This document shows, in pieces, positions 2,616-36,144 of a stretch of 37,692 nt of DNA. The position numbers and the translations under genes are program-made. A model generated the notes under the pieces. It was not told the DNA's origin. It saw nothing but the letters and a program-made list of their open reading frames with translations, and made no database searches. Source of the DNA: a virus; the IMG/VR virus record IMGVR_UViG_3300032087_004322, positions 1-37,692 of that record; one strand, 5' to 3'. Position 1 is the stretch's first letter, and each line of letters opens with the position of its first letter.

Positions 2616-3155
2616 GTGGAACGATTACCAATAAGTAAACTTGCAAACAGCACAGGGCAGATAGATGGAGTGCCTGCTAATCCAAGAACAATAAAAAAAG
2701 ACGACTACGACAAACTAATCAAGAGCCTGCAGGAAGACCCAGACTTCCTAAACCACAAGCCACTGCATGTATATCAGCAGGGCGATAAATATGTCGTGCT
2801 AGGCGGTAACCAACGCTTGAAAGCACTCAAAGAGCTTGATTACAAAGAAGTACCCTGTACCCTGTACAAGCCTGAAACACCGCCAGAAGTGCTTAGAGCA
2901 AGGGTTATGAAGGACAATGCAGAGTTCGGTAGCTGGGATATGGACATGCTCGCCAATGAGTGGAGCGATTTTCCGTTGGCTTATTGGGGCGTTGATTTAC
3001 CAGAAGATTGGCTACAAGACGAGCAGGAAGTGATTAGATTATCAGATGGTAAAGATGTAAGACAAGAATATTTAATTGGAATGTCAGTTCCCCCTGTAAT
3101 GATGGCTCAAGTAGCACATCAAGTCTATGAACAGCTTATAGAGGTAACACAATGA
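2616..3155 (+). CDS. ParB-like nuclease-domain protein
   Basis: 179 residues. The N-terminal ~115 match the ParB/sulfiredoxin fold of phage ParB-like proteins, including PLHVYQQGDKYVVLGGNQRL with the signature G-G-N-Q-R and then ALKELDYKEVPC. A following MKDNAEFGSWDMDMLANEW segment is typical of the phage family. Many relatives continue into a DNA methyltransferase domain; here the protein ends after a short C-terminal helix. The start is GTG 2616 with AAGGGG at about 2604-2609. It lies directly before the terminase genes with a 4-base overlap, a common phage arrangement, so a role in packaging or genome processing is likely. Confidence 0.75.
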   Translation: MERLPISKLANSTGQIDGVPANPRTIKKDDYDKLIKSLQEDPDFLNHKPLHVYQQGDKYVVLGGNQRLKALKELDYKEVPCTLYKPETPPEVLRARVMKDNAEFGSWDMDMLANEWSDFPLAYWGVDLPEDWLQDEQEVIRLSDGKDVRQEYLIGMSVPPVMMAQVAHQVYEQLIEVTQ

Positions 3156-3536: not shown

Positions 3537-4835
3537 TTGGAAACAGTACTACCACATCACTTTGAGCCAAGAATCTATCAGAGAGGCTTTTGGAATGCGG
3601 CTGATAAGTTACTCCGAATAGTAACAGTATGGCCTCGCCGTGCAGGTAAGGATAAGACGATGTATAACAAACTAATAGAGAAGGCTGTTCGGCGTAAGGG
3701 CAACTATTTCTACATCTTCCCTGAATACAATCAAGGTAAAAAAGCCCTCTGGACGAATATAGACAAAGACGGGTTCAGGACGATTGACCACGCTCCCAAA
3801 GATATTGTGCGACGCACCAATAATACTGAAATGCTGATAGAGCTAGTCAACGGCTCAACAATTCAAATAGTCGGCGCAAGTAGTATAGACAGGGTAGTAG
3901 GCTCAAACCCAGCCGGTGTAGTCTTTAGTGAATACTCACTAATTGATCCGATGGTCTGGGGCTATGTGCTACCGATACTGGCCGAGAACAAAGGCTTCGC
4001 TTGGTTCAACTTTACGCCAAGAGGCGCTAACCACGCTAAGAGACTACTAGAACAGGCTAGAGACAACCCTGATTGGTATGCACAACACCTGAACGCTGAA
4101 GATTGCGGTGTATTTAGTAGTCAAGAACTGGTCAAGATACGAGACGAATACTTTGAGCTGTACGGTGACTATCACTTATTTGAACAAGAGTTTATGACCA
4201 GCTTTGACGCGCCAGTAATGGGGGCTTACTATGCTACTCACATCAAACGGGCCAAAGACGAGAACCGCATAACATCAGTGCCATACGACAGCGCTGTACC
4301 CGTTCATACTGCGTGGGATCTGGGTATTGGTGATGCAACTGCCATTTGGTTTTATCAGACAATCGGTAAAGAGATACACATAATAGATTACTACGAGAAT
4401 AACGGCGAAGGATTAGCTCACTATGGCAACATCCTAAACGGCAAGGGTTACGCCTATGGCCGACACTACTTTCCGCACGATGGTAAAGCTAAAGAATTAG
4501 GCACTGGCAAAACTAGACAAGAGGTGGCTAGGCAATATGGCATTAACGCCCAGATACTACCAATGCAATCAGTAGAAGACGGCATTGAGGCGGTACGAAA
4601 CTTAATTGGCAAATGCTGGTTTGATGAAAAGAGATGCGAACGAGGGCTAGATGCACTAACTAACTACTCCAAAGACTTTGACGAGGAACGGAAAATATAT
4701 CGCAACCGACCACGACACGACTGGTCTAGTCACGGATCCGACGCCTTCCGCTATTTAGCAATGGGCTACAAAGAAAATTACGATATACCCCATAGAACAA
4801 GACCTAAACCAAAGAAAGCGAGGTTTCACGTATGA
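3537..4835 (+). CDS. terL: Terminase large subunit (TerL)
   Basis: 432 residues, the usual length. An ATPase domain comes first: Walker A-like VTVWPRRAGKDKTM (residues ~29-42) and Walker B-like region GVVFSEYSL (~127-135), with Ser-Glu where many have Asp-Glu. The C-terminal RNase H-like nuclease shows AWDLGIGDATAIWF (D261, D266) and HDWSSHGSDAFRYLAMG with a late Asp. It cuts concatemers and drives packaging at the portal vertex. The start is TTG 3537 after AGGTGG; no ATG or GTG is nearby. The next gene overlaps by 4 bases. Confidence 0.93.
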   Translation: METVLPHHFEPRIYQRGFWNAADKLLRIVTVWPRRAGKDKTMYNKLIEKAVRRKGNYFYIFPEYNQGKKALWTNIDKDGFRTIDHAPKDIVRRTNNTEMLIELVNGSTIQIVGASSIDRVVGSNPAGVVFSEYSLIDPMVWGYVLPILAENKGFAWFNFTPRGANHAKRLLEQARDNPDWYAQHLNAEDCGVFSSQELVKIRDEYFELYGDYHLFEQEFMTSFDAPVMGAYYATHIKRAKDENRITSVPYDSAVPVHTAWDLGIGDATAIWFYQTIGKEIHIIDYYENNGEGLAHYGNILNGKGYAYGRHYFPHDGKAKELGTGKTRQEVARQYGINAQILPMQSVEDGIEAVRNLIGKCWFDEKRCERGLDALTNYSKDFDEERKIYRNRPRHDWSSHGSDAFRYLAMGYKENYDIPHRTRPKPKKARFHV

Positions 4836-8954: not shown

Positions 8955-9332
8955 ATGGCACAGAATTTAGCAACTAAATTTAGTTCCAAAGTATCTGAAC
9001 GCCTACACAGCGAGTCAATTGTTGGTAAAGTTACTAACAAAAACTACGACTGGGTTGGTGTAGATACTGTAAAAGTCTACTCTGTCGATAATATGGCAAT
9101 GAACGACTACCAAAGAGGTGGAGCAAACCGTTACGGTAACCCAACCGAAATCGGTACAACCATCCAAACTTGGCAATTAGCAGAAGACCGCTCATTCAGC
9201 GGTACTGTTGACGCCCTAAACAGCGCCCAAAGCCAAAATGTAACTAAGCCTGGTTCAATCCTAGCGCGACAAGTTCGCGAAGTAATTGTTCCTAAACTTT
9301 TGGGACTTAACGGAGTAATCCGTTTCGCTTAA
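8955..9332 (+). CDS. Major capsid protein, exon 1 (reads into group I intron)
   Basis: The frame encodes the N-terminal part of an HK97/P22-type capsid protein (MAQNLATKFSSKVSERLHSE... to QVREVIVPKL). The last ten codons before TAA at 9330-9332 (LGLNGVIRFA) belong to the intron. I place the exon end at about 9299, after CTT, where joining to AAG at 10134 restores one frame and gives a protein of about 283 residues. The site AAAGGAAACTAGAA precedes ATG 8955. Without splicing only a truncated ~125-residue product is made, so intron removal should be essential for virion assembly. The exact junction is inferred. Confidence 0.8.
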   Translation: MAQNLATKFSSKVSERLHSESIVGKVTNKNYDWVGVDTVKVYSVDNMAMNDYQRGGANRYGNPTEIGTTIQTWQLAEDRSFSGTVDALNSAQSQNVTKPGSILARQVREVIVPKLLGLNGVIRFA

Positions 9333-10133
9333 TCGTTTTAATTGCTGGGACACCCTAACGAGAGAGACGAGGGCAATCAGCAGCCAAGACACATTGACAA
9401 TTAGATTGAGACACTTACAAAGGAGGCTCAAATGGAAATCTGGAAAACCATACCTGGATACAAAGGACACTACGAAGTGTCATCGTACGGAAGGGTAAGA
9501 ACATTAAAAAACGGGATGAATCCAAAATATTCAACCAATAACAAGCCGAGAGTACTAAAACAAGCTCTGAAACGTAGTGGTTACCTTGCATTAGATTTAT
9601 GTATAGATAATGTGAAGAAAACCACGACGGTACATCGATTAGTTGCAAAGGCGTTCTTAGACAACAAAGACGGTAAATATACCGTGAACCATAAGAACGG
9701 TAACAAAACCGATAATCGCGTAATCAACTTAGAGTGGGCTACAAGTTCAGAGAACACACAACATCGATTCAAGGTACTAAATCAACCCGGTCCAAATCGT
9801 AAGCAAATAATATGTGTAGAAACCAAACAAGTGTTCGCTAGTAGTACTCAGGCAGCCGAGTGGCTATCAAAGAACTACAACCGCACTAAGCAAGTATATT
9901 CAATGGCCAGAAGAATACGTGCAGCGTGTAGTGGCTCTACAAAAACAGCCTACGGCTATCATTGGAAGGATATTGTCAATGTGTAAGGTTCAACGACCAG
10001 TTCAGATGAACGTACACCCCAAGTGGGGTGGAAAAGGACGACTCCTCATTACGAGGATGAAGATATGGTCTCATCTGCATAGAAATATGCAGCAGTTCGT
10101 AAAAGAACGGGCAACCACTAACGAAGGTTGTCG
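9300..10133 (+). ncRNA. Group I intron interrupting the major capsid gene
   Basis: About 834 bases. The core can be read by eye. A P4/P5-like segment TTGCTGGGACACCC (9342-9355) is followed by AATCAGCAGCCAAG (about 9375-9388), the classic ...GCAGCCAAG junction. After the ORF, GGTTCAACGACCAG (9987-10000) and AAGATATGGTC (10060-10070) match the conserved R and S elements, with P7 pairing GACCA:TGGTC. Further hairpins follow: CACCCC/GGGGTG (10015-10030), TCCTC/GAGGA (10043-10057), and a P9 stem CTGCATA/TATGCAG closed by a GAAA tetraloop (10075-10092). The intron probably ends at G10133. Its peripheral domain carries the HNH gene. Confidence 0.88.
9432..9986 (+). CDS. Intron-encoded HNH homing endonuclease (NUMOD4-HNH-NUMOD1)
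   Basis: 184 residues. The NUMOD4 domain EIWKTIPGYKGHYEVSSYGR is at residues 2-21. The HNH_3 core spans about 67-115 (VHRLVAKAF, then YTVNHKNGNKTDNRVINLEW with the H-N dyad, then NTQHR). A C-terminal NUMOD1-like DNA-binding part (VFASSTQAAEWLS, ending YGYHWKDI) recognises DNA. Such enzymes nick or cut an intron-less allele so the intron is copied in by repair. Strong site AAAGGAGG before ATG 9432. It is fully inside the intron between P6-like and P7 elements. Confidence 0.92.
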   Translation: MEIWKTIPGYKGHYEVSSYGRVRTLKNGMNPKYSTNNKPRVLKQALKRSGYLALDLCIDNVKKTTTVHRLVAKAFLDNKDGKYTVNHKNGNKTDNRVINLEWATSSENTQHRFKVLNQPGPNRKQIICVETKQVFASSTQAAEWLSKNYNRTKQVYSMARRIRAACSGSTKTAYGYHWKDIVNV

Positions 10134-10640
10134 AAGATAATGGAGGTAAACACTTATGTTCTAGCAGTAATCAACACTGCTGGTGCAACAGCAAACCGTG
10201 ACGACATCGCTAATGATGCAGCCACATCTGCTGCTAACGCCTGGACTGACTTTTTGTTAATACAAGCAGATATTAGCAACAACTTGGGTAAAACTACTGG
10301 CCGAGTAGCTGTAATGACACCAGATTATTACAACTTCCTAAAGCAAACAGGATATGTACTAGCCAGTGATTCAGCTTACAAAGAACGTAAATCAGGTTCA
10401 CTAGGTACTGTTGACGGTTGTGAAATCGTAGTACACACCAGTGCAGAAATGCCACAATATGTTAACTTAATCATCACTCACCCCGATGTAACTACATTTG
10501 CTGATGTTCTAACTGACTATGTAACTCACAAGAACGCTCCAGGTGTAAATGGTTGGTTGATTGAAGGCCGTCACGCTTATGATGCGTTCGTGGACACCAA
10601 CAAAGTTAATATGGTAGGTATCCACCGTACACAAGCCTAA
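10134..10640 (+). CDS. Major capsid protein, exon 2
   Basis: Encodes the C-terminal ~168 residues of the major capsid protein, from KIMEVNTYVLAVINTAGATA to IHRTQA. It contains typical late capsid segments (TTGRVAVMTPDYYNFL, VDGCEIVVHTSAEMP, VDTNKVNMVGIHRTQA). The frame stays open a few codons further upstream to TTG 10128, but those bases are the 3' end of the intron and there is no ribosome binding site, so it is not an independent gene. Spliced to 8955-9299 it forms the shell subunit. Confidence 0.82.
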   Translation, partial: KIMEVNTYVLAVINTAGATANRDDIANDAATSAANAWTDFLLIQADISNNLGKTTGRVAVMTPDYYNFLKQTGYVLASDSAYKERKSGSLGTVDGCEIVVHTSAEMPQYVNLIITHPDVTTFADVLTDYVTHKNAPGVNGWLIEGRHAYDAFVDTNKVNMVGIHRTQA

Positions 10641-14999: not shown

Positions 15000-17687
15000 A
15001 TGAGCGACATAATTATCACTGGTAACATACAGACCGTAACCTCAACTGGTTCAACTACACCAGCTGTTTCTATAACATCTAGTGTTAGTGACGGTCAGAC
15101 TATTCAGGGCTCATTAACTACTGGTGGCGTAGGACCACAAGGAGCCACAGGACCCACAGGAAGTGCAGGAGCTACAGGACCAGCAGGGGCTACTGGGGCT
15201 GGCTCAACTGGAGCAACAGGCGTTCAGGGAGCCACAGGAGCAAAAGGAGCTACTGGAGTACAAGGGGCTACTGGTACGCAAGGAGCCACAGGGGCTCAAG
15301 GTGCAACTGGAGCTGGTGCTACTGGAGTTACGGGTGCGACAGGTGCAAAAGGCAATACAGGCAATACTGGTGCTACTGGGCCACAAGGTAATGCAGGACC
15401 TACTGGAGCGACTGGACCAACTGGAAACACTGGCTCACAAGGTGCCACTGGAGCCACAGGTGCAGGGGCAACGGGAGTACAGGGAGCGACTGGGGCAACA
15501 GGTCAGGGCGTGCCAGCAGGTGGTACAACAGGGCAAGCCCTAACAAAGAACAGTGCGACTAATTATGATACAGGCTGGTCTACGATAGACTTAAGCTCAA
15601 GAGTAGCTAAAGCTGGCGATACAATGTCAGGTTCACTAGGAGTAACTATTTCAGGCTCAAGTACGGATGTACCAATTACAGCTAAAGTAGACACTAGTGG
15701 AGCGACCAGTAATGCAATACTTGCTAGAAATGATACTAATTATGCACATAGTGGGGATTTGATAAAAGGTAAGTTCTATAACGCCACCGACTCAGGCTCA
15801 ATGATAAAACTAGAAAATGCTGGAACTGGCAATTATATAACTGGCGATAGCGTATTCTCAATAGCTAAGAACGGCAATATAGCTACAACTGGTAATGTAT
15901 CTGTTGCTGATGAGGCTTATGGAGCTGGCTGGAACGGCTCAACCCAAGTACCAACCAAAAACGCTGTTTATGACAAGATTGAAACCTTAGGAACTGTGGG
16001 TGCAACCGGCCCCACTGGAGCCACCGGCCCACAAGGCAACACAGGCAACACTGGTGCAACAGGTGCCACAGGCGGTGTGGGTCCGCAAGGGGCGACCGGC
16101 CCGACAGGTTCAGCTGGCACACAAGGAGCTACAGGGGCAACTGGCGTAGGTGCTACTGGTGCTACTGGAGTTACAGGTGCCACAGGCGTAACTGGTGCTA
16201 CAGGACCAAGTGGGGGCGGTGGAGCAGGTTTGCCAACGACCATAGTGGTTGCCGCTAACGATAGCTCTTCTGCTGATAAGGCTATTGCAGGAGCAACCTA
16301 TACTTGTGATGGAACAGCCGATGATGTTCAAATACAGGCAGCCATAGATGCAATTAAAACGGCAGGCGGTCAGGTAATTTTAGCAACTGGAACATACAAC
16401 ATCGCAACACGGATAGATATACAAGGTGCAAATGCATTAGATGATACTAAATCAGTAACTCTTAGAGGTATGGGAGTAAATGCTAGCAGACTAACTTGTG
16501 CCTCAAATGTATCTGGCATAAGAATATATCACAATGCAAAAGTGAATATACTAGACTTGTCTATCTCGGTAACTGGTACCGGTAACGGCATTGAATCGCT
16601 TGCTGATGAGGCAACTTATATGCGGTCTTTTTGGCAGTCTACCTTTAAAAATCTTAGAATTATAGGCCCCTGGTCATCTGCTCATACAGGCTGGGCAATG
16701 CATCTGGGTAACCCGTTCAGAAGCACCTTTGAAAACATAGAAGTTGAAGGCACTCGTAATGGCTTTAGATTATATACCCAATATGCTGCATTTAATCCTG
16801 GCGACTGTACTTTTATTCGTTGCTTTGTTGAGATTGCTGGTGGCTCTGGTACAGCTTTTGATTTAGATGGAGCTGTAAATGGCGATTGTACGATGAACCA
16901 AGTGGTATTTATTATGTGTGAGGCTATTTGTGATGGCTCTGCCTCAACAACAGGCGTTTATCTACACGGCACTGGCACGGGTAATGCTAGCTGGAATAGA
17001 TTTATAGGATTGAACCTAGAACAGTTCAGAACACTGATAAAAGTTAACAACAATTCTATGAACAACCAGTTTGAGTGCAACTACATAGAGCCATACTCAG
17101 CAGGCACAGTCTTTACTTGCGACAGCACTTCAGGCGGTAACCGATTTAATGCTAAGTTTGTCTACTTTGCCTCAACCGTAGATTTAGTAAATGACGCCAA
17201 TACTACCGATGTTTGTAACTACTACGAACACATCTCAGTAGCTAGTGATACAGGCGGAACGGGTAATGTAACCTATACAGCTAAAAGCAGGTTTGCCAAT
17301 AATGATGTACTCGCTTGGGGTGGTAGTGTTGCTGGCATATTCACCAGTAACTCATTACGCTTAACGACAGGCTCCGTAGCCTCAAGTGCTACTCCAGCTA
17401 TAAATACCGATTTATACGATGAGTTTGATATAACAGCGTTGGCAGCCAATATTACCTCAATGACGACTAACCTAACAGGCACACCGAGAAACGGCCAGAA
17501 ACTGCTCATACGAATAAAAGATAACGGCACGGCTAGAACGATTACTTGGGGAGCAAGTTTTGCTAGTTCAGGTACTGCAACCCTGCTAGCAACAACTGCC
17601 ATTTCTAAAACACATACTGTTGGCTTAGTCTATAACTCAACGGCAAGTAAGTGGTACTGCTTAGCCGTAGACCAAAATGGCTATTGA
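15000..17687 (+). CDS. Collagen-like tail fibre with pectate-lyase-type beta-helix
   Basis: 895 residues. After a short beta start there are two collagen-like blocks of G-x-T/G-x-x triplets (residues ~43-170 and ~334-409), separated by a segment with [19 protein letters not shown], a T4-type fibre repeat. Residues ~411-750 form a beta-helix ([31 protein letters not shown]) like pectate-lyase-3 spikes. The C-terminal ~95 residues end in [12 protein letters not shown], a frequent fibre terminus. It is probably a trimeric fibre that carries an enzyme-like or receptor-binding domain. Site AAGGAG before ATG 15000. Confidence 0.85.
15126..15509 (+). repeat. Collagen-like Gly-X-Y coding repeat, block 1
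   Basis: About 42 Gly-x-x triplets, dominated by G-A-T, with many near-identical 9-base units (GGAGCCACA, GGTGCTACT). Such arrays recombine easily and vary in length. In the protein they form a triple-helical shaft. Confidence 0.8.
15999..16226 (+). repeat. Collagen-like Gly-X-Y coding repeat, block 2
   Basis: About 25 Gly-x-x triplets of the same G-A-T/G-P-Q type as block 1, ending in a poly-Gly linker before the beta-helix domain. Sequence similarity to block 1 makes recombination between the blocks possible. Confidence 0.75.
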
Positions 17688-17690
17688 TAA
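17661..17690 (+). repeat. Direct repeat flanking the HNH gene, copy 1 (fibre 3' end)
   Basis: Encodes the fibre's LAVDQNGY-stop plus TAA. It matches 18215-18244 at 25 of 30 positions by eye, including the first 12 bases and the final TGATAA. Confidence 0.7.
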
Positions 17691-17692
17691 AG

Positions 17693-17713
17693 TGGGATAA
17701 TATATGGTACAAT
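17693..17713 (+). promoter_or_regulatory. Possible promoter(s) for the free-standing HNH gene
   Basis: Two extended -10-like elements, TGGGATAAT (17693-17701) and TGGTACAAT (17705-17713), lie between the fibre stop and the HNH start. If the first is used, transcription would begin at about the start codon, giving a nearly leaderless mRNA. There is no clear ribosome binding site. Confidence 0.35.
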
Positions 17714-18241
17714 ATGAGTATGAATAAAATCTGTGAGCATTGCAAGAGAGTCTTTTTATACAAGACTGGCTGGAACAGTCCAGGCAGATTTTGTAGTAGA
17801 CCTTGTCTCTATGAATCAATGAGAACCATACCTACTACGAAATGCTTAACTTGCAAGAACGAGATTCGCAAGAAAAAGTATTGCAGTAAAAAATGCTACT
17901 ATATCTCACTCAAAGGAAAAGTCCCCACGAACCCCTGGGTTAAAGGACAAGTCGCCTGGAATAAAGGTCTCAAAGGACTGTCTGATGAAAAACATCACGC
18001 TTGGAAAGGCGATAAAGTTGGTTTAATTGCACTACATCAATGGGTAGGCCGTAAATGGGGTTACCCGAATAAATGTGAATTTTGTGGGTTTAGTTCAAAT
18101 AACCGTCACCATATTCAGTGGTCCAATGTAAGTCGTACATATAAACGAGATAGGGATGATTGGCAACGATTGTGCCAAAGTTGTCACGGCAAGTATGACC
18201 GTAAAATGAAGCGTTTAGCCGTAGACGCAACTGGGTACTGA
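17714..18241 (+). CDS. Free-standing HNH homing endonuclease with zinc fingers
   Basis: About 175 residues. Three cysteine pairs-of-pairs are visible: CEHC...CSRPC (residues 7-34), CLTC...CSKKC, and the HNH core CEFCGFSSNNRHHIQWSN followed by RDDWQRLCQSCHGKYD. A central basic NPWVKGQVAWNKGLKG segment is the NUMOD3-like DNA-binding repeat. I start at ATG 17714; a longer frame overlaps the fibre gene. Its final codons (LAVDATGY) re-create the end of the upstream fibre gene, a sign that it inserted as a homing gene at that site. Confidence 0.82.
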   Translation: MSMNKICEHCKRVFLYKTGWNSPGRFCSRPCLYESMRTIPTTKCLTCKNEIRKKKYCSKKCYYISLKGKVPTNPWVKGQVAWNKGLKGLSDEKHHAWKGDKVGLIALHQWVGRKWGYPNKCEFCGFSSNNRHHIQWSNVSRTYKRDRDDWQRLCQSCHGKYDRKMKRLAVDATGY

Positions 18242-32230: not shown

Positions 32231-32431
32231 ATGAAATTAGAAAAGTATGATCCAACCAAAGTCAGTAGGCTAAAAAAAACAATATATACATTCTTAGTTA
32301 TTTTAATAGCACCATATACCTTGCTATTGAGTCTGTTCTTTGTACAGTACATCTGGACAGGCAGACCACCATTCAAGAAAAATACCGGCAAGCTAACAAG
32401 TTACAAGAAACTAAAAGACGAAAATAAGTAA
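32231..32431 (+). CDS. Small membrane protein, 66 aa
   Basis: A basic N-terminal segment (KYDPTKVSRLKK) precedes one long hydrophobic span (TIYTFLVILIAPYTLLLSLF, residues ~17-42), then a basic, polar tail. No ribosome binding site, so possibly leaderless. Unknown function. Confidence 0.5.
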   Translation: MKLEKYDPTKVSRLKKTIYTFLVILIAPYTLLLSLFFVQYIWTGRPPFKKNTGKLTSYKKLKDENK

Positions 32432-32455
32432 GTTACCATCGCAAGCGACAAACAT

Positions 32456-32484
32456 TTGCACACTAAAACGATTTAGAGTATAAT
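32456..32484 (+). promoter_or_regulatory. Sigma70-type promoter TTGCAC-17-TATAAT
   Basis: TTGCAC (32456-32461), a 17-base spacer and TATAAT (32479-32484). The predicted start (about 32491) falls within a few bases of the first base of the 23-bp inverted repeat. The product meets a terminator after ~47 bases. Confidence 0.75.
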
Positions 32485-32490
32485 AGTAGC

Positions 32491-32538
32491 TACAATCACC
32501 CAGATCACGGACCGAGCGAGAGCAAGGGCCGTGTTTTT
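32491..32538 (+). ncRNA. Predicted ~47-nt small RNA / terminated leader
   Basis: Begins at the promoter's expected start and ends at a U run (32534-32538) after a CACGG/CCGTG hairpin (32506-32510 with 32529-32533). Its 5' part, bases 32493-32515, is perfectly complementary to bases 34126-34148 in the leader of the muramidase gene. This suggests a base-pairing regulator. Expression is not shown. Confidence 0.5.
32493..32515 (+). repeat. 23-bp inverted repeat, left copy
   Basis: Exact reverse complement of 34126-34148; the match ends abruptly on both sides. The two copies flank the recombinase gene and its promoters (distance about 1.6 kb). Confidence 0.9.
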
Positions 32539-33042
32539 CGCGTCTCAATAAACTCTTATTTAAAAACTTATGTAACACGGTACAAGTAGGTTACCGAGAG
32601 TTAGCTATTGTCTAAAAAAGCTAATCACCTACTGAACAAACTTAGTTCACTTTGAGTGTAGAGTGTTTAGGGGAGGTGGCACATTGTAACTCCCCCGACC
32701 TGCTATGCACTTGAGGGTTAGAAGTGAAACTATGGAAGTGGGAAATAAAAGATCTTGCACTACCTCTGACGATGGGGGACTGAGATAAAACTCTGGTAGT
32801 GTGGTGTTGTACAAGCACCTCTCTAATACCAAATAGATACAGATATAAAGAGATAAACAAAGATGTTAGGCTATGAATGTAAATACGGTAGCCCAAACAC
32901 TAAGAGCAAGCGCCCTAGAGACAATGCTTCATGTTACATAAGTCATCTTAATAAAACCTGCTACCTACTGGAACTAATACCGAGCAGGGAGTATTCCTAT
33001 TGTTAACAGTTATGGTTTACATTTATTAAGTTAAAGGTTAAT
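32539..33042 (+). other. 500-base gene-free structured region upstream of the recombinase
   Basis: No plausible ORF with a ribosome binding site. It holds several stems: AGTAGGT (32585-32591) with ACCTACT (32627-32633) enclosing TTAGCT/AGCTAA (32601-32606, 32619-32624); a competing CGGTA/TACCG stem (about 32579-32595); GGGGAG/CTCCCC (32670-32675, 32690-32695); and GCACTACC/GGTAGTGT (32757-32764, 32795-32802). Could be a structured RNA, recombinase arm sites or part of attP. Identity unknown. Confidence 0.4.
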
Positions 33043-33927
33043 ATGTATCATTCACTACAGATTAAAGACAGTTTAAGTCTCAGAGAGGTATCTATGCGCA
33101 GGCTAGTAGACCTGTTTAGTATTGAGTATGTTCGTTTCAAAAACCTTAGTGGCAGAACAGAGGAAGGTTATCGGACAGCAGTTGCGAGTTTATTAAATGT
33201 AATAGGCGAAGTAACCTCTAAGCAAATAACTTCAAAAGATATAAAGGAGTGGCATAATTACATGCTAGAGAATAACTATGCAATGGGAACCATCAGGAGT
33301 CATCTTTCTAGGATTAAGAACTTGTTTGAGTGGTCTAATTCTAAGGGCTTAACGAACTTTCCTGTTAACGACATAATTTATCCGAAGACTACAATAACAC
33401 CGCCTCGTTTTGTTACAACCGAAGATGTTAGTCAAATGATAAAAGTAACGACCAAAGGCAGAGATAAAGCGGTAATATCGTTGCTTTATGCATCAGGACT
33501 ACGATCTAGTGAGCTGTCTGGGCTTAATAGAAGCTCTCTAACAGGCAATCAATTACAAATACTAGGCAAAGGTCATAAATACCGTTTAGGCTTCATAGAC
33601 GCTCGTACAGCCTTTCTGATAGCTACCTACCTAGACGGTCGCAACGACAACCTAGCACCACTTTTTATAACAAATCGTGGTACTCGTTTAGAAAAAGAAA
33701 TTATTGCTAGAATTGTAAAAACAGCCGTACTCAGCGCTGGTTTAGATGAGTCAGTAACCCCACACACCCTAAGGCACGGTTACGCAACAAACCTACTCAG
33801 AAATGGTTGTAACCTCAGATATATTCAAGAATTACTTGGCCATAGTAATATTCAGACAACTATGCTCTATACGCATGTGTTGGATGATGACTTATCCACA
33901 AATTATAAGAGGTACCACAGCATATAG
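33043..33927 (+). CDS. int: Tyrosine recombinase / integrase (XerC/D-like)
   Basis: 294 residues. The N-terminal SAM-like core-binding domain (residues ~20-110) is followed by the catalytic domain with the full set: R154 (YASGLRSSEL), K in LGKGHKYR (~176-179), H241 and R244 (HTLRHGYAT), H267 (LLGHSNIQTT) and the nucleophile Y276 (MLYTHV). It joins or inverts DNA via a 3'-phosphotyrosine. Start ATG 33043 after AAAGGTTAAT; ATG 33094 is an alternative. It is either the phage integrase or the enzyme acting on the flanking 23-bp inverted repeats. A perfect promoter follows immediately. Confidence 0.92.
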   Translation: MYHSLQIKDSLSLREVSMRRLVDLFSIEYVRFKNLSGRTEEGYRTAVASLLNVIGEVTSKQITSKDIKEWHNYMLENNYAMGTIRSHLSRIKNLFEWSNSKGLTNFPVNDIIYPKTTITPPRFVTTEDVSQMIKVTTKGRDKAVISLLYASGLRSSELSGLNRSSLTGNQLQILGKGHKYRLGFIDARTAFLIATYLDGRNDNLAPLFITNRGTRLEKEIIARIVKTAVLSAGLDESVTPHTLRHGYATNLLRNGCNLRYIQELLGHSNIQTTMLYTHVLDDDLSTNYKRYHSI

Positions 33928-33940
33928 CGCATAATGCTAT
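33924..33940 (+). other. Inverted repeat at the end of int (operator or core-site candidate)
   Basis: ATAGC-GCATAAT-GCTAT: two 5-bp arms around a 7-base spacer, overlapping the int stop codon and touching the -35 box at 33940. The geometry fits a tyrosine-recombinase core site or an operator controlling the adjacent promoter. Confidence 0.35.
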
Positions 33941-33968
33941 TGACAAGCTAGAAACTGTGGCGTATAAT
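33940..33968 (+). promoter_or_regulatory. Consensus sigma70 promoter TTGACA-17-TATAAT
   Basis: Perfect -35 (33940-33945), 17-base spacer, perfect -10 (33963-33968). It is the strongest promoter in the window, lies just after int and points toward the muramidase gene through a terminator at 34099-34122. Confidence 0.9.
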
Positions 33969-33974
33969 CTTAAG

Positions 33975-34122
33975 CAGTACTTTTACAGTTCAAAGTTCAA
34001 TAAAAATCTCAAGCGGATTTAACTGAGTTCTGTTATATCACCCTTCATATAAAAGGCACTATAACTTAACAAATACATACCGAGCATTATACCACAGACC
34101 CGCTAGAGAAAGCGGGTTTTTT
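33975..34122 (+). ncRNA. Predicted ~148-nt RNA between a consensus promoter and a terminator
   Basis: No ORF with a ribosome binding site. AT-rich, ending in the terminator CCCGCT/AGCGGG. It could be an independent regulatory RNA (immunity, copy control) or an attenuated leader of the downstream muramidase gene. Confidence 0.45.
34099..34122 (+). terminator. Rho-independent terminator
   Basis: CCCGCT (34099-34104) pairs with AGCGGG (34111-34116) over a 6-base loop, then six T. The inverted-repeat hairpin begins 2 bases after the T run. Confidence 0.88.
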
Positions 34123-34123
34123 A

Positions 34124-34158
34124 ATTCGGTCCGTGATCTGGGTGATTGCGAACCGAAT
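34124..34158 (+). promoter_or_regulatory. Leader hairpin presenting the inverted-repeat sequence in its loop
   Basis: ATTCGGT (34124-34130) pairs with ACCGAAT (34152-34158). The 21-base loop carries most of the sequence complementary to the predicted small RNA at 32491. A large single-stranded target loop is what an antisense interaction would need. The following 34160-34300 bases hold further short stems (CTGGA/TCCAG, CAGAC/GTCTG) and no convincing gene. Confidence 0.45.
34126..34148 (-). repeat. 23-bp inverted repeat, right copy
   Basis: Exact reverse complement of 32493-32515. Lies just downstream of a terminator and upstream of the muramidase gene. Confidence 0.9.
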
Positions 34159-34316
34159 AGAGAAACCAAGTCAGGTACTAGCGCGGGCGGATCATCAGCG
34201 GCCTAGTAGCGAGCAGGAATCTCGTCATTCTGGAGTGGAGTCCAGAGAAGTGTTGCCAGACAGCCGACAGTCTGATTACAAAAAACGGAGTCCATTAAAA
34301 AAAGGGGGTACGGTTC

Positions 34317-34850
34317 ATTCGTACAGCATTACGACTGACGCTAGTCATCTTACTGGTGAACATAGCGACAGCACACGCAGCTCCCCAGAACCTTAACAAT
34401 CAGGTTACAACAACTGAGCAAGCCGAGCAGGTTGTTGAAAAAGAGGAGCGCCCTGTGGAAGTGGTTACGCCACCAAAGCAGGAAGAACCGCCAAAGGCAG
34501 TAGAACAGCCTAAAGCGGTTGAGAAGCCGATAATAAAGCCGGCAACACCAAAAGCACCAGTCGCAAAAGCTACTGGCACTAAAGAACAGTGGATGGCTCA
34601 GGCAGGAATCCCGAATTCTGAATGGAAATATGTTGACTACATAGTCAGCAAAGAATCGGGTTGGAATCCTAACGCAGTCAACAAAAGTTCTGGTGCATGT
34701 GGTTTGGTGCAAAGCCTTCCTTGCAGTAAGTTAGGCACAAATTGGCGCAATCCAGTACATGCTCTTATATGGCAGAAGAACTATGTAAAAGCGCGTTACG
34801 GCGGATATGCACAAGCATACGCATTCTGGGTAGCTAATCACTGGTACTAG
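34317..34850 (+). CDS. Secreted muramidase/aggregation-promoting-factor-like protein
   Basis: A GTG start at 34356 would cut through a signal peptide. The frame upstream reads IRTALRLTLVILLVNIATAHAA with an AHA-A signal-peptidase site, and AAAGGGGG sits 8 bases before ATT 34317. I therefore propose a non-canonical ATT start. After the signal comes a Pro/Glu/Lys/Val-rich linker (~25-90). The C-terminal ~85 residues are a lysozyme-like SLT/APF domain (YVDYIVSKESGWNPNAVNKS with catalytic Glu, SGACGLVQSLPCSKLG, YAQAYAFWVANHWY). It probably acts on peptidoglycan outside the cell. Lies between the recombinase and the replication operon. Confidence 0.75.
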   Translation: MRTALRLTLVILLVNIATAHAAPQNLNNQVTTTEQAEQVVEKEERPVEVVTPPKQEEPPKAVEQPKAVEKPIIKPATPKAPVAKATGTKEQWMAQAGIPNSEWKYVDYIVSKESGWNPNAVNKSSGACGLVQSLPCSKLGTNWRNPVHALIWQKNYVKARYGGYAQAYAFWVANHWY

Positions 34851-35255: not shown

Positions 35256-35413
35256 TGGACGAAGAATATAAATCACTCATAGAGAGACTAATCTTAGCAA
35301 AGTTAGAATCAGAGCTAGTAAAGACTGACGACATAAACATAATTAAACTTTATGTTAAGAAACAAGCGAAAAAACTAGACAGAAAGCTAGAGAAATTAGA
35401 GAAAGCTAAATAA
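35255..35413 (+). CDS. Small helical protein, 52 aa
   Basis: ATG 35255 overlaps the preceding TAA, with GAGAAAGG upstream. The product starts MDEEYKSLIERLILAKLESE and ends in a lysine-rich helix (KKLDRKLEKLEKAK). Its own TAA overlaps the nuclease ATG. Part of the replication operon; function unknown. Confidence 0.55.
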   Translation: MDEEYKSLIERLILAKLESELVKTDDINIIKLYVKKQAKKLDRKLEKLEKAK

Positions 35414-36144
35414 TGGAAAATACAACACATTACAACGGGGAAGTGGAACTGATATTTGACCCACAAAAACACCGCTATACCATTAACGGCAAACCTACTA
35501 AAGGTGTTACTACCGTACTACAAAGGCTAAATAAGCCAGCTCTAGTAGTCTGGGCGGCTAGTGAGGCTAAAAAATATATAGAAGCCAACCTAAAGCCTGG
35601 AGTAGCCCTCGATGAGGTAGAGATTCAGCAACTAGCCAAAGACGCAATGTGGGCGCACCGTAACCGCAAGGACACGGCGGCTGAGATGGGTACATTCGTC
35701 CATCAGTTTTTACAAGACTGGATTGAGGGGAATCCCCAACCAATGCCGATCAACCCGCAATTACAGAAGGCGGTAAACGCTTTTATCAAGTGGTATGAGA
35801 AACAAACTATGGAAGGTAATTGTGAACAACGCCTTTGTAGCCCAACGCTTAGTCTAGCCGGAACAGTAGACTTTGTTGGTCAACTAGATGGTAAACTGAC
35901 AATCCTAGACTGGAAAAGTGGATCTGGCATATACCCAGAGTACCTATACCAGATGGGGGCATACGCCGAGATGTACGAAGAAGAGTTTGGTCAAAAGATA
36001 GAGCAAGTAGGGGTGATCAATTGTTCAGTCAAAGCACCATTTAAAACTTACTTTACGAGTGAAGTACAACCACTAAAAGATATTTACAAAGACTTACTAA
36101 GTCTAGATAGCAAATTAACAACTATAGAAGAAAGGATGAAATAA
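35413..36144 (+). CDS. PD-(D/E)XK nuclease (Cas4/RecB-like)
   Basis: 243 residues. The N-terminal part (FDPQKHRYTINGKPTKGVTT) is seen in phage exonuclease-like PDDEXK proteins. Motif I GTFVHQFLQDW (H97), E138, then SLAGTVDFVGQLDGKLTILD with D153 and DWKSG (D166, K168) form the active site. QMGAYAEMYEE carries the late Gln/Tyr. Probably processes DNA ends in replication or recombination beside the SSB-like gene. Coupled by TAATG on both sides. Confidence 0.82.
   Translation: MENTTHYNGEVELIFDPQKHRYTINGKPTKGVTTVLQRLNKPALVVWAASEAKKYIEANLKPGVALDEVEIQQLAKDAMWAHRNRKDTAAEMGTFVHQFLQDWIEGNPQPMPINPQLQKAVNAFIKWYEKQTMEGNCEQRLCSPTLSLAGTVDFVGQLDGKLTILDWKSGSGIYPEYLYQMGAYAEMYEEEFGQKIEQVGVINCSVKAPFKTYFTSEVQPLKDIYKDLLSLDSKLTTIEERMK

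Follow-up and report, generated by a model that had tools for sequence, protein, structure and literature searches.

A perfect 23-bp inverted repeat in a phage genome as a probable antisense RNA and its target in a muramidase leader

Introduction

The window analysed here is a whole virus record of 37,692 bases. The sequence CAATCACCCAGATCACGGACCGA at 32493-32515 recurs, exactly reverse-complemented, at 34126-34148, as an earlier note on this DNA had claimed. Between the two copies lie roughly 500 nt in which no gene is convincing, a tyrosine recombinase of Xer-like type and the promoter at 33940. The earlier note proposed either that a small RNA made from the left copy pairs with the leader of a muramidase gene at the right copy, or that the copies are crossover sites of the recombinase. 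The analysis favours the RNA: with a probability of roughly 0.68, the inverted repeat is an antisense RNA plus its target site in the leader (Table 1).

The repeat stands out in the record. The second-longest exact inverted repeat in the 37.7 kb is 15 bp, so that the 23-bp pair is alone above that length, and by our own arithmetic (37692^2/2/4^23) such a repeat is expected by chance about 1e-5 times per record. An exact search of IMG/VR with the 23-mer gave no match elsewhere, and no DNA similarity to the segment was found in GenBank phages or in 39 records of the phage family described below.

Table 1. Features of the repeat locus in the window and in its relative G015 (positions of G015 in the coordinates of locus L121)
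Genome	Feature	Position	Strand	Basis or detail
Window	Promoter of predicted antisense RNA	32456..32484	+	TTGCAC-17-TATAAT; alternative TTTGCA with 18-nt spacer
Window	Predicted antisense RNA, ~48 nt	32491..32538	+	Sequence, fold, accessibility; predicted ends
Window	Left copy of 23-bp inverted repeat, predicted pairing region of antisense RNA	32493..32515	+	Sequence
Window	Xer-like tyrosine recombinase/integrase, 294 aa	33043..33927	+	PF00589, 6.5e-31
Window	Consensus sigma-70-type promoter of leader transcript	33940..33968	+	TTGACA-17-TATAAT, 12/12 match
Window	Intrinsic terminator within leader	34096..34121	+	Sequence
Window	Target hairpin ATTCGGT...ACCGAAT, holds right copy	34124..34158	+	Fold
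Window	Right copy of inverted repeat, predicted antisense target	34126..34148	+	Sequence
Window	Remaining untranslated leader	34159..34316	+	Shine-Dalgarno AAGGGGG at 34302-34308
Window	Secreted SLT muramidase, first gene behind leader	34317..34850	+	PF01464; AggPromo_Cterm NF052397
Window	PD-(D/E)XK nuclease, recombination-type, same gene run as muramidase	35413..36144	+	PF12705
G015	Promoter ahead of left copy	17020-17048
G015	Left copy of 19-bp repeat	17061-17079
G015	73-aa ORF, sole ORF between copies	17410-17631
G015	Leader promoter	17737-17765		TTGACA-17-TATAGT
G015	Leader terminator	from 17811
G015	Right copy, in hairpin	17855-17873
G015	Muramidase ATG	18003		Preceded by leader

Anatomy of the locus

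At the left end, the left copy starts 9 nt past the -10 element TATAAT (32479-32484). The predicted RNA consists of an unpaired 5' tail, a GC-rich hairpin at about 32506-32533 and the run TTTTT at 32534-32538, which bears out, as sequence anatomy, the earlier claim that the left copy coincides with the predicted start of a transcript that has its own promoter and terminator; the predicted length is about 48 nt. The stretch that follows, 32539-33042, runs for about 500 nt up to the integrase with no convincing gene; in G015, too, about 330 nt behind the left copy are non-coding. The stretch in the window holds a perfect 12-bp inverted repeat of its own (ACTTATGTAACA, 32566-32577 / 32932-32943), which perhaps represents integrase arm sites or a structured RNA.

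The right copy begins 6 nt past the leader terminator, inside the ATTCGGT...ACCGAAT hairpin. The earlier note had placed it in the loop of this hairpin just after the terminator; the placement holds, but the copy is not confined to the loop, as it also builds most of the stem, and only UGGGU is unpaired in the prediction. Folding of 34085-34170, a range that takes in the terminator as well as the target hairpin, gives a z score of -5.0. From the end of the target to the Shine-Dalgarno sequence the distance is about 150 nt in the window and about 115 nt in G015, and the target lies more than 120 nt ahead of the start codon. Each of the two leaders has a further region of strong structure.

The gene behind the leader indeed encodes a secreted muramidase-like protein, as first noted, with PF01464 and a signal peptide, though its start needed correction: the ATT codon at 34317 gives a clean signal peptide (MRTALRLTLVILLVNIATAHA) and has AAGGGGG 8 nt upstream, and is probably the start codon rather than GTG at 34356. 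The muramidase of G015 starts with ATG, compared with ATT in the window. The identifiable genes of the window are all on the + strand, with structural genes, a CHAP endolysin (30118) and small genes on the upstream side, and the muramidase, small ORFs, the PD-(D/E)XK nuclease and a small protein weakly similar to winged-helix proteins downstream of the leader. The muramidase is indeed the first gene behind the leader, but to name it as the target was too narrow, since it heads a same-strand run that includes recombination genes. From its gene content, the run behind the 33940 promoter appears to be an early-type operon. Neither the window nor G015 yielded a CI-type repressor (HTH_3 or Peptidase_S24).

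Elsewhere in the window, an HNH (homing-type) endonuclease ORF at 9432-9986 is inserted between 8955-9332 and 10128-10640, which may be two pieces of one structural gene; 17651-18241 has an HNH-like appearance by eye.

A relative with the same layout and unrelated letters

A family of related phage contigs was reached via the portal protein (39 records). A scan of the collected loci for perfect inverted repeats, blind to gene and place, gave a pair in G015 (IMGVR_UViG_3300048586_000056; 40,490 bases), where a perfect 19-bp inverted repeat, TTCCCCTCAGAAGCCCTTG, lies just upstream of the muramidase. The G015 muramidase is 57% identical to that of the window and has syntenic surroundings: homology extends to a neighbour on either side (gene 31452 upstream and gene 36144 downstream), and the recombination genes ERF and PDDEXK nuclease are also downstream. 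The order of parts matches the window part for part, minus the integrase, and the copies are 0.8 kb apart compared with about 1.6 kb in the window. The hairpin of the small RNA is present in G015, with no U tract after it. In the G015 leader (17768-17838), an alternative helix, GAUUCGC/GCGAAUC, can compete with the leader terminator in an attenuator-like manner.

The pairing sequences of the two phages share at most seven ungapped identities; what is common to both is therefore complementarity and not sequence. Complementarity in relatives had been set beforehand as the test by which the RNA reading could fail, and G015 has lost the sequence and kept the complementarity perfect. The RNA duplex prediction that had been called for gives -47.7 kcal/mol for the cognate pair of the window and -42.4 kcal/mol for that of G015, against about -23 kcal/mol for the crossed pairs, which is background-like. 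Further, the best non-self partner of each small RNA in the scanned sequence is its own leader, and in both phages the 5' part of the small RNA, which the prediction leaves unpaired, complements the target hairpin's loop (ACCCA/UGGGU in the window; CCUC/GAGG in G015).

The promoters are placed alike as well. The left copy follows a promoter-like -10 by 9 nt in the window and by 13 nt in G015; a promoter-like site that close upstream should occur at 0.9% of positions in either sequence, and both phages have one. Similarly, both phages have a promoter matching at least 11 of 12 positions in the 250 nt ahead of the right copy, against expectations of 0.7% and 2.3%. In 2.2 Mb of partly redundant sequence, no more than a handful of separate places have perfect repeats of at least 17 bp whose copies lie 300-2500 bp apart. 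Collectively, the same layout and perfect complementarity in unrelated sequence support the pairing of an antisense RNA with the muramidase leader, and the retention of the layout with unrelated letters suggests that base-pairing itself has been preserved.

The layout was found in two phages only, the window and G015. The comparable region of the other family members has no perfect repeat of at least 15 bp, and a duplex scan of their non-coding stretches gave interrupted matches only. Searches of IMG/VR and the genome collection with the muramidase, as a single query or a full-length alignment, returned almost nothing because the peptide patterns fell in the variable part of the protein. An alignment of the catalytic part reached 63 loci; in the closest of these the N-terminus is long and of membrane or coiled-coil type, and the leader repeat is lacking upstream.

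Perfect inverted repeats of 18-24 bp also occur in other phages of the family, where they surround intergenic gene cassettes or lie at their starts. The repeat of L123 (650-671 / 1720-1741) bounds a promoter and two ORFs and touches terminators; in L089 (3675-3692 / 4061-4078) the right copy overlaps a terminator, and in L030 (2012-2035 / 2985-3008) the copies are the start regions of two divergent genes. These repeats were set aside, as their positions are those of gene starts or terminators.

Alternative explanations

The reading of the repeats as crossovers of an invertible promoter switch has some appeal. A segment with the recombinase and the 33940 promoter would flip and turn the muramidase on or off, and in both phages a strong promoter does lie between the copies with the muramidase outside. 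A tyrosine recombinase between the repeats, as the earlier note claimed, is confirmed by PF00589; in NCBIfam it is XerA/C/D-like, below curated cut-offs, and this short enzyme is weakly similar to tyrosine-type DNA invertases. The order repeat, recombinase, promoter, repeat and gene also resembles a Hin-type segment, which differs in that the enzyme here is a tyrosine and not a serine recombinase. However, G015 has no detectable tyrosine (PF00589) or serine (PF00239) recombinase and nevertheless keeps the layout, although a host enzyme is possible; the repeat has thus been kept without a recombinase, which is probably not needed for the RNA pair. The repeats also lack the dyad symmetry expected of a tyrosine-recombinase core (at best 4 of 9 pairs, p 0.56, and 3 of 8, p 0.84), and comparable repeats flanking relatives of the integrase were not found. 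No dif-like Xer site scored above shuffles. Moreover, inversion gives no role to the coincidence of the left copy with a predicted start of transcription. The crossover model is accordingly not supported, and we regard inversion as unlikely.

Somewhat less credible still is the idea that a phage regulator binds the repeats as DNA, or that they mark where a mobile gene cassette ends, with RNA complementarity as a by-product. It can draw on L089 and L123, family members whose perfect 18- and 22-bp inverted repeats surround intergenic cassettes and adjoin terminators. The sites are not palindromic, however, no transposase or common end sequence was seen, and repeat sequence and intervening content are wholly different between the phages while the positions of promoter and terminator are kept.

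The two copies, being on the same strand in both phages, could also share one long transcript from an upstream promoter and pair in cis, for example to protect or process the integrase mRNA, but this is the least probable of the three, given that in the window most such transcripts would end at the U-tract hairpins that follow the left copy and precede the right one, and that the right copy has a separate strong promoter in both phages.

Proposed mechanism

The antisense reading can be put as a sequence of steps. An RNA of about 48 nt would start at about 32491 from its own promoter, and the leader RNA that carries the target would be made from the consensus promoter at 33940. The unpaired 5' tail CAAUCACCCAG would contact the UGGGU loop of the target hairpin (34124-34158), and pairing would spread from the loop to the whole 23-bp duplex. 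Transcripts that extend beyond the leader terminator would then be repressed by the duplex, whether through cleavage, altered leader structure or further termination, and the muramidase and the same-strand genes behind it would be held down. That the RNA is produced, that it pairs in vivo, in which direction it regulates and that it plays a part in immunity is what we infer from the sequence.

The position of the target limits how such an RNA could act. As the target lies behind the leader terminator, the small RNA cannot steer that terminator by usual attenuation and meets read-through transcripts only. Further, the target lies more than 100 nt ahead of the Shine-Dalgarno sequence, so direct masking is unlikely, and constrained folding gives no consistent change in Shine-Dalgarno access upon pairing. 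Anti-Shine-Dalgarno switching by the target was considered and rejected: 6-bp matches are visible by eye in both leaders, but they are likely due to chance and constrained folding is inconsistent. The small RNA may also activate rather than repress. By analogy, it most likely represses the early-type operon by an action like that of P4 CI or P1/P7 c4, outside those families, because the muramidase heads a run with recombination genes and no CI-type repressor was found.

An RNA-based replication origin, as in mycobacteriophages (PMC7157519), was likewise set aside. There is no sign of a primer RNA, but in both phages a long non-coding stretch follows the left copy, which would be compatible with one.

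Comparison with known phage RNAs

The CI RNA of P4 is processed from the leader transcript itself, targets seqA and seqC around it in the operon leader, which also has terminators, and by pairing causes premature transcription termination and prophage immunity (PMC4825925). The locus shares with it a (here predicted) small antisense RNA against a same-strand leader, proposed operon silencing and leader terminators, here with perfect matches of 23 and 19 bp. In contrast to P4, the predicted RNA has its own promoter-like site, genes lie in between, and there appears to be a single perfect target (23 nt; 19 nt in G015), with the RNA 1.6 kb (0.8 kb in G015) upstream of it.

The c4 RNA of P1/P7 is a three-stem RNA of about 77 nt, processed by RNase P, that uses two short loops, one of them at the ribosome-binding site (PMC5320573, PMC12197685). 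It too is an antisense RNA upstream of its target on the same strand, and its specificity differs between related phages (P1/P7 heteroimmunity). The predicted RNA described here differs in having about 48 nt and one hairpin, and its single long match is distant from the start codon; a c4-like overlap of the pairing with the ribosome-binding site is absent in the window and in G015. The Rfam C4 motif has no match at the gathering threshold in the window, nor at E up to 5 in 32380-34400. More generally, no Rfam family reaches its gathering score in the window, and matches around the locus and in G015 are at chance level.

The sar RNA of P22 and OOP of phage lambda are further phage antisense RNAs (PMC12197685). 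The likeness lies in a short terminated phage RNA with its own promoter that acts by antisense pairing. Both sar and OOP are transcribed at the position of their target, off the other strand. The predicted RNA gene here is instead a separate copy, 1.6 kb away and on the same strand as the target. Judged from sequence features, the locus appears to be a known kind of phage RNA control, differing in its own promoter, its distance and its single perfect target.

Implications

A tentative extension of the antisense reading, possible but doubtful, is immunity without a repressor protein. An RNA of about 50 nt, made from its own promoter upstream of the integration module, would silence the early operon via one perfect match to a hairpin directly after a leader terminator; RNA and target would drift together, so that each phage of this uncharacterised family would form its own immunity group.

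If true, the finding would give a phage family in which no cultured or named member was found a switch made of RNA alone. It would also supply a sequence-independent signature, namely an RNA close to its promoter that is the perfect complement of a hairpin following a terminator in a leader. This signature could be used on metagenomes to find phage RNA repressors that protein searches miss, and immunity groups would be predictable straight from sequence.
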